Origin: Candidatus Accumulibacter sp. ACC003
Lineage (GTDB): Bacteria; Pseudomonadota; Gammaproteobacteria; Burkholderiales; Rhodocyclaceae
Length of the DNA: 64,000 nucleotides
Assembly (NCBI RefSeq): GCF_907163085.1
Contig: NZ_CAJQTX010000005.1
Coordinates: 310,001 to 374,000 of the forward strand
Direction of reading: 5' to 3'
Part shown: in pieces, positions 59,279 through 64,000 of the stretch
Numbering within the stretch: the first letter of the stretch is position 1
Layout: every line of letters begins with the position of its first letter
Notes under the pieces: generated by a model
Seen by the model: only the letters and a program-made list of their open reading frames with translations
What the model was told of the DNA's origin: nothing
Databases searched by the model: none
Program-made: the position numbers and the translations under genes

Positions 59279-59377
59279 GCGCCCGGCGTCAGCCGCGACC
59301 GAGGTGAACGGTAGCAAGCTGCCGGCTACGGAAAGGCCAGGCGCGAATCGCTAGCGGCATTGCAGGGGGATAGGCAA

Positions 59378-60019
59378 ATGTCCTGTTGTCACCACTACTA
59401 CCTGCCGGGCGAAGGCACCGAAAGCGTCTTCTCGGTCGACATTTCCGCCATCAGCTTCGGCCACGGTGTGCTCAAGGAAGCGGGAGAACACGCCAAAGCT
59501 CTGGGCATGAGCCGGGTCGCGCTGTTTACCGACAAGCGTATCCGGGCACTGCCCTGCCTGGTCGAGGTCGCCGACTCCTTGCGGGCAGCAGGACTCGACG
59601 CGGTGATCTACGACGAGGTCAAGGTCGAACCGACCGATCAATCGTTTCTTGCCGCCGCCAGATTCGCCACCGAAGGCAAGTTCGACGGCTATCTGTCGCT
59701 GGGGGGCGGATCGGTCATCGACACCTGTAAGGCCGCCAAGCTCTACGCCACCTACCCGGCCGAATTTCTCGACTACGTCAATGCCCCCATCGGCAAGGGG
59801 CGGCCGATACCCGGCCCGCTCAAGCCGCATATCGCCTGTCCCACAAGCTGCGGCACCGGGTCCGAGTGTACCGGCATCACGATTTTTGACTTGGTCGCGC
59901 AGCAGGTGAAAACCGGCATCGCGTCGAAGCACCTCAGGCCGTCATTGGCGCTGATCGATCCCGCGACCACCTACACCCTGCCCAAGAATGTCGTCGCCGC
60001 CAGCGGCTTCGACGTGTAA
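59378..60019 (+). pseudogene. Iron-containing alcohol dehydrogenase (HOT-type), truncated by IS3 element
   Basis: An N-terminal 213-aa part of a hydroxyacid-oxoacid transhydrogenase-like Fe-ADH. The NAD-binding [19 protein letters not shown] and the substrate segment [17 protein letters not shown] are intact, but the sequence stops at ASGFDV, where the full protein would continue with the metal-binding half. The TAA stop comes from the left end of the IS3 element. ATG 59378 is used, with GGGGG upstream. The missing C-terminal half, including metal ligands, should lie to the right of the window if the gene was simply interrupted. Confidence 0.85.
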
Positions 60020-60108
60020 AGTGGTCCCCTGAGTCAAGACAAATATCAACCCAGTTTAAGTTGTGCATTTGACTTCGCTAGCAGCTGGACGGCGCTGCCC
60101 CGGTGTTG

Positions 60109-60156
60109 CCTTTGACTCTGCCTTTGACTCTGCCTTTGATGCTGTCGTTGATTTTG
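60109..60156 (-). repeat. 12-bp tandem repeat, four copies, in the IS3 orfB tail
   Basis: Plus-strand units: CCTTTGACTCTG twice, then CCTTTGATGCTG and TCGTTGATTTTG. The unit length is a multiple of three, so the frame is kept; it codes a repeating Lys-Ala-Glu-Ser peptide on the minus strand. Confidence 0.85.
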
Positions 60157-60161
60157 CCTTT

Positions 60162-60214
60162 GCGGGTGGGGCATCGCCTGTGGAGCGTAGCGGAACAGGC
60201 GATGCCCCACCCGC
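60162..60214. repeat. Perfect 20-bp inverted repeat with 13-nt loop (REP-like palindrome)
   Basis: The left arm 60162-60181 (GCGGGTGGGGCATCGCCTGT) is exactly complementary to the right arm 60195-60214, around the loop GGAGCGTAGCGGA. It resembles intergenic palindromic repeats of the REP or MITE kind but lies within the transposase reading frame. It codes the ASPVPLRSTGDAPPA part of the tail. Confidence 0.9.
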
Positions 60215-60381
60215 GCCGCCAAACTTGTCGAGGATCAACGCCCCGCCACCTATGCCGTTTCGATAGACGACGGCGGGTGCCGTGTTGCCCAGCGACTGGT
60301 GCGGACGCTCAGTGTTGTAGAAGGCGAAGTACTCGGTCAGGCCAAGCATCAATTCGCCCATCGTGGCATAGCCCTTCAGAT

Positions 60382-60386
60382 ACACG
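60382..60386. repeat. Left copy of the 5-bp target duplication
   Basis: ACACG on the plus strand (CGTGT on the minus strand). It is identical to 63665-63669. Joining the two flanks and keeping one copy restores the orfB sequence GAGGACGTGTATCTG (EDVYL). Confidence 0.9.
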
Positions 60387-60503
60387 TGTTACGTCCGGCC
60401 CTAATCCAGACTCCGCGGCCCAAGCTTTTCGAGGTTGAAACGATGGCCGAGTCCCATGCTGCAACCGGAAGAGTGATCCCGGCGGCAACGTGGGATGAAG
60501 GCC

Positions 60504-60704
60504 CTACCGATGCGGCAGCAGCGGCAACCGCCAAGGCTCTTCGGGGTCGTACAGATTCATCTGCCGCTGGTGGTAGCGGCGTAGCTGTACGGCATAGCGG
60601 CTTTCGCAAGCGACGGCGAGTTGGTGAAGGAAGTGGCTGAGCGCGGCCACGCTTTCATCGGAGAGGCCGTCGGGGAATAGCGGCTCGGCAGAGCGGCGCT
60701 TCAT
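60504..60704 (-). CDS. Small 66-aa protein, last gene of the transposon
   Basis: Its ATG overlaps the ATPase stop (ATGA 60701-60704). It has a basic N-terminus (MKRRS), a predicted helix (LSDESVAALSHFLHQLAVACESRY), a basic segment (QLRRYHQRQMNLYD) and a short proline-containing end. I recognise no family. The strict coupling to the ATPase suggests it is a real part of the transposition machinery, perhaps a DNA-binding or adaptor protein. Confidence 0.7.
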   Translation of the reverse strand: MKRRSAEPLFPDGLSDESVAALSHFLHQLAVACESRYAVQLRRYHQRQMNLYDPEEPWRLPLLPHR

Positions 60705-61495
60705 CGCAATTCCTCGATCGCCAACTGCAACAGATCGTCGGGCAAATGATTCAGGCCACGCGGCACCGCCAGGCGCATCGCCGTGCGCAGAATTCGCCCG
60801 GCGTGCCGCGGCAAGCCCTTGCTCGCCTGGCGCACGATCTCCAGGCCCGAATCGCTGAGCAGCGTACTGGTACAACCGGCACTCTTCAAACTGTGCTGGA
60901 TCAGCTGCGCGAAGCGCTCGCGTTCGAGCACCGGCTTGAGCTGCACGCGCACCTGAATTCGCCCCGCCAGCGCCGCATAAGGCGCCCGCTCCAGCGTTTG
61001 CGCCAGTGTTGGATGACCGATCAACCAGACCGCCATCACATCGCGCGTATCGAAGGCGAAGTTGAGGAAGGCCGGCAAATCCCGAAAGAACTCCGGCGGC
61101 AGATTCTGCGCCTCATCGATGATCCACACCGGCATCAGCTGACGGCTATCGACCAACTGCAGAATCCGCTCCTTCAGATCGCGCCACAGCTGCGCCCGCC
61201 GATACCCCGGCTCGACACCCAGCGCCCGTGCCAGACCGCGATAGATATCCAGCCGACCAAAGTCGGTCTCCGCCTGATAGATCACCTGATAACGATGCGG
61301 ATTCAGGCCACGGGTCAATTGGCGCAAGGCCGCCGTCTTGCCCACCCCGGGTTCGCCGGTGATCAGGCCGACGCCCGGTGAGTGCAACAACCACGCAAAG
61401 CGCTCGGCCAACTGTCCCAGCGTACCGTCATCCCACAGCTCGGCCGCTTGCTTGCCCAGCGGCGGATGCCGCAAACCAAAGTGCTGAAGGTCCAC
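60701..61495 (-). CDS. Transposition AAA+ ATPase (TniB/ExeA-like)
   Basis: A 264-aa protein. Walker A is GEPGVGKT (residues 47-54) and Walker B is VWIIDEAQNLP (Asp127, Glu128), followed by a sensor-like VWLIGHPTLAQTL. It resembles TniB, IstB-type and ExeA ATPases. In related elements this protein selects target DNA and activates the transposase. The start is GTG 61495, one base after the transposase stop, with GGAG inside the transposase end. Confidence 0.9.
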   Translation of the reverse strand: MDLQHFGLRHPPLGKQAAELWDDGTLGQLAERFAWLLHSPGVGLITGEPGVGKTAALRQLTRGLNPHRYQVIYQAETDFGRLDIYRGLARALGVEPGYRRAQLWRDLKERILQLVDSRQLMPVWIIDEAQNLPPEFFRDLPAFLNFAFDTRDVMAVWLIGHPTLAQTLERAPYAALAGRIQVRVQLKPVLERERFAQLIQHSLKSAGCTSTLLSDSGLEIVRQASKGLPRHAGRILRTAMRLAVPRGLNHLPDDLLQLAIEELR

Positions 61496-61496
61496 C

Positions 61497-62825
61497 TCAC
61501 TCTCCTTCGGGGTCGTAGTACTGCTGATAGATCTGCTCGATCAGATTCGGGCCGCTCGCCCCTTTCTGGGGCGGGCTAGCGTCCGCTGGGTCAGACTGGC
61601 GTCGTTGGCGCGTGGCATTGGCCAGCGCATCGAGTGGCGTCGCCGCACCGATCGATTCCCCTTGCTCGTCCTCGACGCCGATCACCGTCTCGGTATGCGG
61701 ATCGACCACCAGAGACACCGTTTTGCCCGACAGTTCAAAGGGCACCTCGAAGCGTTGTCCCTGATACGATACCGTGCCATCCTTCCTGACCAGTCGCGTG
61801 ACGCGATGCTGGAACAGGGCATCGAGGCTTGCCGCCAACGGCCCCAACGGACGAATCCTGGACAGGTCCTGCTGGTAACGCGCCAACGGCGTCATGCCGG
61901 CGAGACCGGCGTGCGGGCTGCGGTGATAGACCTGTTCAAGCCAGGCCCACAGGCGAGCATTGAGATCGTCCAGGCTGGCGATATGGCGCTCATCGAGTTC
62001 GCTGAGAAACTGATCGCGGCAGCGGCGGTGCCAGCGCTCCAACTTCCCTTTGCCCTCGGGCGCGTACGGCCGACAGTGAATCAGGTGGATGCCCAGCCGG
62101 GCGCAGATCCCTTGCAGCGTCTCGGCGCGGTAGGCGGCGCCGTTATCGACCACCAGCTTGAGCGGAATGCCGCGTTTGAGCACCGCCTGCTTGAGCACGC
62201 CTTCGATATCCAGGGCGGTTTCTCCGGGGCAGAAGGCGCTGTGCGTGAGTAGCCGGGAGGCGTCGTCGAAGAGCGATACGAGATAGCTCTTGGCGAGTTT
62301 GCCGTCGATCGGCACGCGTGGGCCGTGCATCACGTCGCCGTACCAGATCGCCCCCGCTGTCGCGGCGACGAAGCTGCGTTTCTCCTCGGGCAGGCTGGCC
62401 GAGCCGGTGATCCGTGACAGGCCGTGCTGCTGCAGCAGACGGTGAATGGTCGACCGGGCCAGGCGGCCACGGGCGACGGTGCCGGTGGCTTCGAGCAATT
62501 GTCGAATCTGGCACAGCGAGCGCCGCGGGTTGTCGCGCTTGGCGGCGAGAATGGCCGCCTGGGTGGCGGCCGGGAGCTTCGACTGCCCGCGGTCGGCGCG
62601 TGGCTTGGGCGTCAGGCCGTCAAGCTGGCGGAGGCGCCAGGCGTAGTACCACGCCTGAATCGTCTTCTCGCTCAGATAGCGCCGACGGCTGCCGGGGATG
62701 GCGTACTCGCGGCTGGCCAGCTCCCGGAGGAGCTGTTGCAGTTCGCCACGTTCCAGCCGCTCGCGGCTGATCAGGGGACCGAGAACGGACAGGCGAAACA
62801 GGGCTTTCGGATCAATCGGGTTCAT
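61497..62825 (-). CDS. D,D(35)E transposase (rve/integrase core)
   Basis: A 442-aa protein. An N-terminal HTH region (LSEKTIQAWYYAWR, STIHRLLQQHGLSR) is followed by an rve catalytic core with Asp164 (WYGDVMHG), Asp227 (LVVDNGAAY) and Glu263 (GKGKLERWHR), spaced D-62-D-35-E. A C-terminal Mu-type beta domain (GTVSYQGQRFEVPFELSGKTVSL region) and a Gln/Tyr-rich end follow. ATG 62825 has AGGAG upstream; a 22-codon open extension is not conserved. It should recognise the 11-bp ends and make 5-bp staggered joins with the AAA+ partner. Confidence 0.93.
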   Translation of the reverse strand: MNPIDPKALFRLSVLGPLISRERLERGELQQLLRELASREYAIPGSRRRYLSEKTIQAWYYAWRLRQLDGLTPKPRADRGQSKLPAATQAAILAAKRDNPRRSLCQIRQLLEATGTVARGRLARSTIHRLLQQHGLSRITGSASLPEEKRSFVAATAGAIWYGDVMHGPRVPIDGKLAKSYLVSLFDDASRLLTHSAFCPGETALDIEGVLKQAVLKRGIPLKLVVDNGAAYRAETLQGICARLGIHLIHCRPYAPEGKGKLERWHRRCRDQFLSELDERHIASLDDLNARLWAWLEQVYHRSPHAGLAGMTPLARYQQDLSRIRPLGPLAASLDALFQHRVTRLVRKDGTVSYQGQRFEVPFELSGKTVSLVVDPHTETVIGVEDEQGESIGAATPLDALANATRQRRQSDPADASPPQKGASGPNLIEQIYQQYYDPEGE

Positions 62826-62863
62826 AACCACTCCTGGTGATAAATCGGAGCGGTGATCAAACC

Positions 62864-62877
62864 AGAACGGCCGTTCT
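62864..62877. promoter_or_regulatory. Palindromic operator-like site upstream of the transposase gene
   Basis: AGAACGGCCGTTCT is a perfect 14-bp palindrome 38 bp before the transposase start. A half-site (CCGTTCT) recurs at 63612-63618, about 50 bp from the right transposon end. The site could bind the element's zinc/HTH protein or the transposase. Confidence 0.45.
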
Positions 62878-62900
62878 AATGACAGGAGCAAACTGTGTGG

Positions 62901-62922
62901 GGTCCCCGCCCGGGCGGGGACC
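62901..62922. repeat. Perfect 22-bp GC-rich palindrome between transposon genes
   Basis: GGTCCCCGCCC is followed immediately by its exact complement. It lies 33 bp after the zinc-protein stop on the minus strand. It could form a strong hairpin that limits readthrough into the transposase gene, or be a protein-binding site. No U-tract follows. Confidence 0.6.
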
Positions 62923-62954
62923 TCACCGTCTGCCGCTCGTTCGGAATCAGTTCA

Positions 62955-63488
62955 TCACGGGACGCTGATCTGCCGATCAAGCCAGGTCATGGCCTGTGCC
63001 AGGCCGATCGATTCGAATACCCGGCGCCAGAAAGCGCTGCCGTCGACCGTCCGCCCGAGGTCGGCAAAGCGAGCACGCAGGTGAAACTCGAACAGCAGGC
63101 GGCGCTCCTGGAGCCAGGCCCACCAGCGACCGGCGGTGCGCCGCTCGGGCGCCGCGCCGGGTGCGCCGGGGCGATCGGGCGCACCGCTCAGCCGCTGTGC
63201 CAGGACCGCTTGCTGCACTGACCAGTCATACCAGCGGCGCGGCGCGATGCACGCCGGCAGACGCGAACACGTCCGCCGACATCCAGAGCAACAGTAGCGG
63301 CAGATCGGCACCGGATTGAGTGAATCCTGCCCGGCTCGCCGGTCGGCCTTGCGCTCGTAGTGCCCGTGCTGCCAGAGAATCTTCAGGCCGCAATGCGGGC
63401 AGCACGGCGGTCGATACGCTTCGGGGGTTTGCTTGATGGCCTCAAGATGCTGCTCGATCGTCTCGATGCCGGCTACAATTCGCTGCAT
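62955..63488 (-). CDS. Zinc-ribbon/HTH protein, first gene of the transposon
   Basis: A 177-aa protein. Two Cys pairs (CPHCG and CRYCCSGC) with the HGHYERKADRR and CSRLPACIAPRRWYDW context form a zinc ribbon of the kind seen in DUF6431-like and transposase N-terminal domains. A C-terminal helical part (ERRTAGRWWAWLQERR) may be HTH-like. It lacks a catalytic core, so it is likely a DNA-binding accessory or regulator. No clear ribosome site precedes ATG 63488. Confidence 0.72.
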   Translation of the reverse strand: MQRIVAGIETIEQHLEAIKQTPEAYRPPCCPHCGLKILWQHGHYERKADRRAGQDSLNPVPICRYCCSGCRRTCSRLPACIAPRRWYDWSVQQAVLAQRLSGAPDRPGAPGAAPERRTAGRWWAWLQERRLLFEFHLRARFADLGRTVDGSAFWRRVFESIGLAQAMTWLDRQISVP

Positions 63489-63653
63489 GGGCTGGGCGCT
63501 TTGCGGTGTGGTTTGTCTTGATAACTTCCCACGATAGCAGAGTTGTCCCGGCCCTTCTTTCGTTCACTTCGTCCCAACATCCTTCAGGCAGGCCGCCTTC
63601 TTTCGCTCTGACCGTTCTCGGGATGAAGCGCGCCGTCAGACCCGGGAGAGCGG
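63489..63653. other. Right subterminal region of the transposon
   Basis: About 165 bp between the zinc-protein start and the right terminal repeat. It should hold the element's promoter and transposase-binding sites. A CCGTTCT half-site at 63612-63618 matches the palindrome at 62864-62877. I see no ordered array of repeats like the Tn7 end sites. Confidence 0.4.
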
Positions 63654-63664
63654 CGGACGTAACA

Positions 63665-63669
63665 ACACG
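63665..63669. repeat. Right copy of the 5-bp target duplication
   Basis: ACACG, identical to 60382-60386, directly after the right terminal repeat. Confidence 0.9.
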
Positions 63670-64000
63670 TCCTCGTACTTGACGCTGCGCCAGAGGCGCT
63701 CGACGAAGATGTTGTCGAACACGCGCCCCCGCCCATCCATGCTGATGACGACGCCTTCCCGTTTCAGCACCCCGGTGAAGGCTTCACTGGTGAACTGCGC
63801 GCCTTGATCGCTGTTGAAGATTTCTGGCTTGCCGTGGCTACGCAGGGCCTCCTCCAGGCAATCGACACAGAACACCGATTCCATGCTGTTGCTGATCCGC
63901 CAGCTGAGCACCTTGCGGCTATACCAGTCGATCACGGCGACCAGGTAGGCGAAGCCGTGGGCCAGCCGGATATAGGTGATGTCCGTGCTCCACACCTGGT
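63665..64000 (-). pseudogene. IS3 orfB transposase, catalytic part, continuing past the right edge
   Basis: It encodes the DDE core of an IS3-group transposase: WSTDITYIRL (first Asp), FNSDQGAQFTS (second Asp) and NIFVERLWRSVKYEDV (Glu). The frame is open at the right edge, so the upstream part of orfB and orfA lie outside. It is broken after EDV by the transposon; its continuation YLKGYATMG is at 60386. The product as it stands would end in a few codons of transposon sequence (LLRPPLSRV). Confidence 0.87.

Follow-up and report, generated by a model that had tools for sequence, protein, structure and literature searches.

A 3278-bp element inserted in an IS3 transposase gene of Candidatus Accumulibacter sp. 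ACC003 raises the question of which kind of transposon it represents. It occupies positions 60387 to 63664 of a 64,000-nucleotide stretch, hereafter the window (contig NZ_CAJQTX010000005.1, positions 310,001 to 374,000). An earlier note, made from the letters alone, had described it as a complete transposon encoding a zinc ribbon protein, a D-D-(35)-E transposase, an AAA+ ATPase and a 66-residue protein, with the zinc ribbon now assigned to DUF6431. The four co-directional genes lie together between defined ends, flanked by a direct repeat of about 5 bp, and further copies occupy many unrelated insertion sites in the same genome. The element is very probably an autonomous, cargo-free, AAA+-dependent transposon, and is best filed as an AAA+-dependent DDE transposon with an IS481-like core. 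Its features are as follows.

60387..63664, minus strand: whole element, 3278 bp, genes running from high to low coordinate; delimited by its ends, the duplication and at least 10 other two-ended copies in the genome
60387..60397, plus strand: terminal inverted repeat of the orf4-side end, TGTTACGTCCG
63654..63664, minus strand: terminal inverted repeat of the orf1-side end, TGTTACGTCCG read on the minus strand
60382..60386, no strand: target-site duplication, copy 1, ACACG
63665..63669, no strand: target-site duplication, copy 2, ACACG
62955..63488, minus strand: orf1, DUF6431 protein of 177 amino acids (Pfam PF20020, above cut-off), zinc ribbon and helical half
61497..62825, minus strand: orf2, DDE transposase of 442 amino acids, with a helix-turn-helix (HTH), a D164-D227-(35)-E263 core, a predicted Mu-type C-terminal domain and a conserved tail; translation might also start earlier, at TTG 62891
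60701..61495, minus strand: orf3, AAA+ ATPase of predicted TnsC/MuB type, 264 amino acids, GTG start
60504..60704, minus strand: orf4, small conserved protein of 66 amino acids (LSDE...Y..Q..R), its start overlapping the orf3 stop by 4 bp
60056..60386, minus strand: C-terminal part of the interrupted IS3 orfB, from the reading frame and the joining of the flanks
63665..64000, minus strand: part of IS3 orfB upstream of the insertion, extending beyond the window edge

Boundaries, copies and target sites

The two ends of the element are identical over 11 bp (TGTTACGTCCG, inverted) and unlike thereafter, and all four genes lie on the minus strand. The 5-bp flank reported earlier as CGTGT is present on both sides and reads ACACG on the plus strand. 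Joining the flanks with a single ACACG yields a stop-to-stop frame of 436 residues in which IS3 orfB runs uninterrupted across the join, bearing out the claim that removal of the element and one flank copy restores this gene.

The assembly (5.39 Mb, 13 contigs) was searched for further copies, with 40 of 159 first-look candidates scored, and more pieces may exist. It holds at least six uninterrupted full-length copies, the window copy included, with 98-100% identity, in addition to at least five copies split by later insertions, one copy cut by a contig end, one 364-bp piece, and short, diverged pieces. With so many full-length and split copies in one genome, the occurrence of the element is not due to chance, and it is a recent, multi-copy repeat. 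At least 11 copies have both ends, at 11 different places. Exact direct repeats border 8 of these 11, seven of 5 bp and one (L012) of 7 bp, so that the same ends and duplications recur at independent copies; a 4-8-bp match was found in 0.9% of 2000 flank pairs taken from different loci. The remaining three (L009, L016 and L019) have no direct repeat, and no exchange of flanks among them was seen when they were compared by eye.

The insertion targets are unlike one another, for instance the IS3 gene in the window and a different frame at L005, presumably that of a restriction-enzyme subunit; there is therefore no single attachment site. Among 25 insertions with 5-bp repeats, some of them at loci where the choice of ends had favoured such a repeat, the target shows a weak bias towards N-C-W-G-N: 15 have C at position 2, 17 have G at position 4 and 12 have G at position 5, all above the 99% random level. 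Insertion is nearly random with a slight site preference. A search for the two ends joined to each other (GACGTAACA-N1-14-TGTTACGTC) gave no case in 101 genomes or 228 loci, a weak test in assemblies that rarely hold such forms.

Several further observations concern these copies. In two pairs, the copies are no more than 3 kb apart (C1:544072-556399 and C1:697820-708960), which argues against a strong local target immunity. The orf1-side end has two sequence variants among the own-genome copies (L009-L019), which are otherwise mostly 98-99% alike, suggesting either two subfamilies or an exchange of ends. Solo sequences resembling an end of the element, with no evident partner, occur at L023, L025, L026 and L028. 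At L027 (1078-2489; C1:300577-301988), a 263-bp tandem repeat of 5.4 copies contains sequences closely resembling the orf1-side end; the end may derive from a host repeat, or the repeat from the end. Within one copy sits a distant relative of 3861 bp (L017, 2010-5870; C1:551064-554924), with TGAG ends, a 6-bp repeat CTTGAG and a transposase of 34% identity. Beside the window copy, an open reading frame at 59360-60019, which we take to resemble the N-terminal part of an iron-containing alcohol dehydrogenase, ends next to the IS3 remnant, and IS3 may itself interrupt a gene.

A family in at least three phyla

The earlier note had proposed looking for the four proteins as a set in other genomes. 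Scanning of GTDB contigs with the transposase alignment yielded 495 related loci, and the 80 best were retained. All four genes were matched in 57 of these best 80 of 495, 17 were without orf4, four without orf1 and two had orf1 and orf2 only; several of these gaps fall at contig ends. The relatives belong to Pseudomonadota and Bacillota, and to Actinomycetota with three of the genes. Four annotated genes are found on plasmid records of Cupriavidus, Pandoraea and Paraburkholderia. In an Acidithiobacillus relative, the ATPase is unannotated, and stops lie near its end in our own reading. Within the group of 33-35% transposase identity, Metabacillus has all four genes, Geobacillus pGeo12a and pGS18 have orf1, transposase and ATPase, Sporosarcina has transposase, ATPase and a small gene, and Geobacillus pGt35 has two annotated genes; the small genes of Metabacillus and Sporosarcina are unlike orf4 in sequence. 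Two Rhodococcus plasmids carry a protein gene at the place of orf1, together with transposase and ATPase, and the first of these orf1-place proteins scored 20.8 against DUF6431, below the cut-off of 26.6. Altogether, the family looks like a widespread branch of ATPase-helped transposons.

Ends and repeats were also compared across the relatives. The ends of L036-L115 were picked again without a repeat bonus, after a first choice that had favoured 5-bp repeats. This gave 43 loci with fitting ends; after removal of 10 at contig edges and one duplicate, 20 of the remaining 32 have a 4-8-bp repeat (fifteen of 5 bp, four of 6 bp and one of 8 bp) and 12 have none. With a bonus for repeats, the candidate ends in Bacillota begin with TGTAA and have 6-7-bp repeats at four of five loci (all except L033); in Actinomycetota the candidate ends are weaker, with 6-bp repeats at three of four loci. 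Genome G429, of the same class as the host and found via orf4, holds two further element types, whose repeats were read by eye. The first has six copies with TGTTGT ends, five of them bordered by 5-bp repeats and the sixth by a 6-bp repeat; the second has four complete copies with TGAG ends and repeats of 4, 5, 6 and 7 bp, and a fifth, partial copy left unscored.

Repeated transposase sites at the ends are a feature of MuA systems. They are also described for TnsB and IstA systems in the available text of PMC11406308 and PMC11208146. A motif built solely from the orf4-side terminal site was scored against the 95% shuffle level in 33 distinct elements, with near-identical ends collapsed and L080, L105, L107 and L112, whose ends are unsure, excluded. 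It recurs on the orf4 side in 25 of the 33, in direct orientation at positions 31 and 65 and inverted at about 100, and the orf1 side has an extra match in 16 of the 33, mostly inverted, at about 84 and 109. At the relatives' positions, the window copy has degenerate sites that fall below the threshold.

60417..60434, plus strand: degenerate second internal site of the orf4 side (position 31)
60451..60462, plus strand: degenerate third internal site (position 65)
60486..60497, minus strand: degenerate fourth internal site, inverted (position 100)

Some loci stand apart. In Paraburkholderia (L114), a relative similar to that of L017 lies within an element of the window's type. On the Pandoraea plasmid NZ_CP015372.1 (L271, 29-49 kb), a biphenyl-degradation cluster lies between two inverted copies, one with its own 6-bp repeat and the other with none, and the pair could act as a composite transposon. 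Five loci (L055, L060, L076, L081 and L090) are whole contigs bounded exactly by element ends, as would be seen where the assembly had merged several identical copies.

The four proteins and the transposase tree

The catalytic triad of orf2 consists of D164, D227 and E263, with 35 residues separating the second aspartate and the glutamate. These residues align with the catalytic residues of TnsB/TniA, IstA, IS481 and IS3 references; the glutamate of MuA did not align. Pfam models rve and HTH_32 match all 59 family members, and at E 0.01 Mu-transpos_C_2 matches 48 and Mu-transpos_C 42 of the 59, both falling below the Pfam cut-offs in the window protein. A profile search against the PDB gave TnsB of a V-K system as the best match (E 6.8e-12, residues 47-389), followed by retroviral integrases and IstA at about 3e-9 (IstA 3.6e-9). 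Toward the C-terminus, a variable linker precedes a conserved tail with the consensus GPNLVExAHxQYY, which recalls the TnsB hook as described in the available part of PMC11208146. The transposase appears to combine an IS481-like core with a Mu/TnsB-type C-terminal domain.

The PDB sequence most similar to the orf3 profile is MuB, and the predicted model of orf3 aligns with TnsC, tied by fold with Cdc6/Orc1; orf3 is thus predicted to fold like TnsC/MuB. At E 0.01, neither the TniB nor the IstB (PF01695) model of Pfam matches any of the 59 orf3 members. We infer that this ATPase is needed for transposition.

DUF6431 was matched in 56 of 56 orf1 relatives at E 0.01, with four invariant cysteines, and an HTH model also matched in 19 of the 56. 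The predicted model of orf1 (mean pLDDT 88.6) comprises a zinc ribbon and a helical half, and orf1 is probably a DNA-binding accessory protein. In orf4, the DE pair is invariant, and S, L, Y, Q, R and P are near-invariant. Both proteins keep to the element in its own genome: every one of the 12 listed DUF6431 matches (from 13 scored of 51 candidates) and of the 11 listed orf4 matches (from 16 scored of 89) lies within an element copy. Elsewhere, DUF6431 occurs in four other genomes of 398, and orf4 is present in 10 of 369 genomes; among 10 example loci of orf4, the ATPase adjoins in eight, a transposase fragment in one, and neither in one. The ratio of nonsynonymous to synonymous substitution rates (dN/dS) is 0.23-0.48 for orf1 (five relatives) and 0.12-0.24 for orf4 (four relatives), values that indicate purifying selection on both, compared to 0.15-0.22 for orf2 and 0.06-0.19 for orf3 (five relatives each).

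A comparison of the transposase with TniA/TnsB, IstA and IS481, suggested earlier, was made by phylogeny. MuA was excluded because its branch length exceeds 7 and its place is unsure. Also left out were four family rows and IstA_L225, which is the same sequence as IstA_L224. Four reference rows that were short or odd, three of them IstA-like and one IS481-like, had been dropped before; seven of nine fetched TniQ loci gave a transposase row and two gave none. The 18 family rows form one clade (97/94), the seven TniQ-linked transposases (TnsB/TniA) a separate clade (100/100), and the three IstA rows another (99/97). With MuA included, two changes rather than one were required for the family, and 76% of the bootstraps showed one. 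The best tree groups the family with TnsB/TniA at just 73/57, and joint clades with IstA (p 0.237) or with IS481/IS3 (p 0.222) were not rejected; each of these groups is a candidate for the nearest relative of the family. The TniA/TniB logic ascribed to the element earlier thus holds for the pairing of a TniA/TniB-like transposase and ATPase, whereas the transposase is no TniA, having a clade of its own and an IS481-like core.

Placement among known transposons and proposed mechanism

IS481 elements encode a single transposase. It could be argued that the element is an insertion sequence of this family, with a self-sufficient transposase, and that orf1, orf3 and orf4 are regulators carried along with it. 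IS481 is the best NCBIfam family model for the window orf2 (189.6 bits) and matches 59 of 59 members, more strongly than the ISNCY, IS3, IS21 and IS630 models that also match all 59. The window protein nevertheless stays below the cut-off of 224, which two of three Bacillota relatives exceed (255.1 and 249.1). The catalytic core and HTH are shared, as are TGT/ACA ends, given as common to IS481 in the available text of PMC11406308, and the joint clade with IS481/IS3 was not rejected. Against this stand the presence of four genes, the joint retention of the extra ones in two phyla, with three of the four genes retained in another, the purifying selection on them, and the Mu-type C-terminal domain and extra end sites found in the family. 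We regard this explanation as improbable.

Compared to Tn7-like and Tn5053/Tn402 transposons, the element has a similar architecture: a DDE transposase with a putative Mu-type C-terminal domain, a TnsC-like ATPase, TGT/ACA ends, a 5-bp duplication (7 of 11 own-genome copies, one of 7 bp) and, in family relatives, several putative transposase sites per end. It differs in having extra DUF6431 and orf4 genes, a transposase clade of its own and an orf3 without a TniB match, and in lacking several parts. As claimed earlier, TniQ, a resolvase and cargo are missing between the ends: no TniQ domain was detected in the four proteins (Pfam at E 1), no TnsA nuclease or resolvase domain was found in them with Pfam and NCBIfam, and no cargo lies between the ends. 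The TniQ model (PF06527) also had no match in the host genome, where every one of the 40 candidates was scored; it does match in 7 of the 61 genomes searched. Could the element be a decayed relative of Tn7/Tn5053 that lost TniQ, TnsA and resolvase? Consistent with such an origin, the PDB profile search ranks TnsB first, the predicted ATPase structure can be aligned with TnsC, the best tree places the family next to TnsB/TniA, and the ATPase of the distant relative L035 weakly matches TniB (17.3 bits against a cut-off of 22.4). The fully supported TnsB/TniA clade excludes the family, however, and the family is multi-copy in several genomes rather than decayed, which makes decay very unlikely.

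An IS21-like IstA/IstB element is less likely still, to the point of being hardly credible. The likeness lies in a compact, cargo-free build with a transposase and an AAA+ helper, in putative repeated end sites of the family and in a duplication of about 5 bp (repeated sites and often 5-bp duplications being ascribed to IS21 in the available part of PMC11208146), as well as in the IstA match in the PDB and in the NCBIfam IS21 model, on which the window protein scores 56.2, below the cut-off of 160. By contrast, the ATPase is not IstB by Pfam, the element has four genes compared to two in IS21, and IstA forms a separate clade, though the joint clade was not rejected. Phage Mu likewise pairs a transposase with a MuB-type ATPase, and differs in that no phage genes lie between the ends of the element. 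The element departs from each of Tn7/Tn5053, IS21 and IS481 in at least one defining feature. The earlier suggestion of a little-described group holds within the literature searched: a description of the four-gene set was not found there, including in the available text of PMC10045372, PMC11406308, PMC10293859, PMC11208146 and PMC10214660, with ISfinder and TnCentral outside its scope, and its novelty to the literature depends on the content of these two databases.

By its anatomy, the AAA+-dependent transposon proposed here works like those of the TnsB-TnsC, MuA-MuB and IstA-IstB kind. In such a mechanism, orf2 would bind several sites at each end, bring the two ends together and transfer their 3' termini to staggered positions, about 5 bp apart, in the target DNA. 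The TnsC/MuB-like orf3 would mark the target DNA and activate orf2, probably by contact with its C-terminal domain or conserved tail. As a DNA-binding accessory, orf1 might regulate the operon or help to choose the target, and orf4 may serve as a small accessory. For the second strand, IS21-like copy-out/paste-in or direct cut-and-paste would be likelier than cointegrates, given that there is no TnsA and no resolvase. More speculatively, and with considerable doubt, we suggest that the family might be a fourth separate AAA+-dependent system beside Tn7/Tn5053, Mu and IS21, present in at least three phyla, in which a DUF6431 protein, together with orf4, replaces TniQ as the target adaptor that contacts the ATPase.

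The element gives DUF6431 a home. CRISPR-guided transposons arose from the AAA+-dependent group, and a TniQ-free family that is apparently active, measures about 3.3 kb and has an ATPase of 264 residues would be a simple system in which to study the role of the ATPase without a TniQ adaptor, and such a compact family might also serve as a tool.

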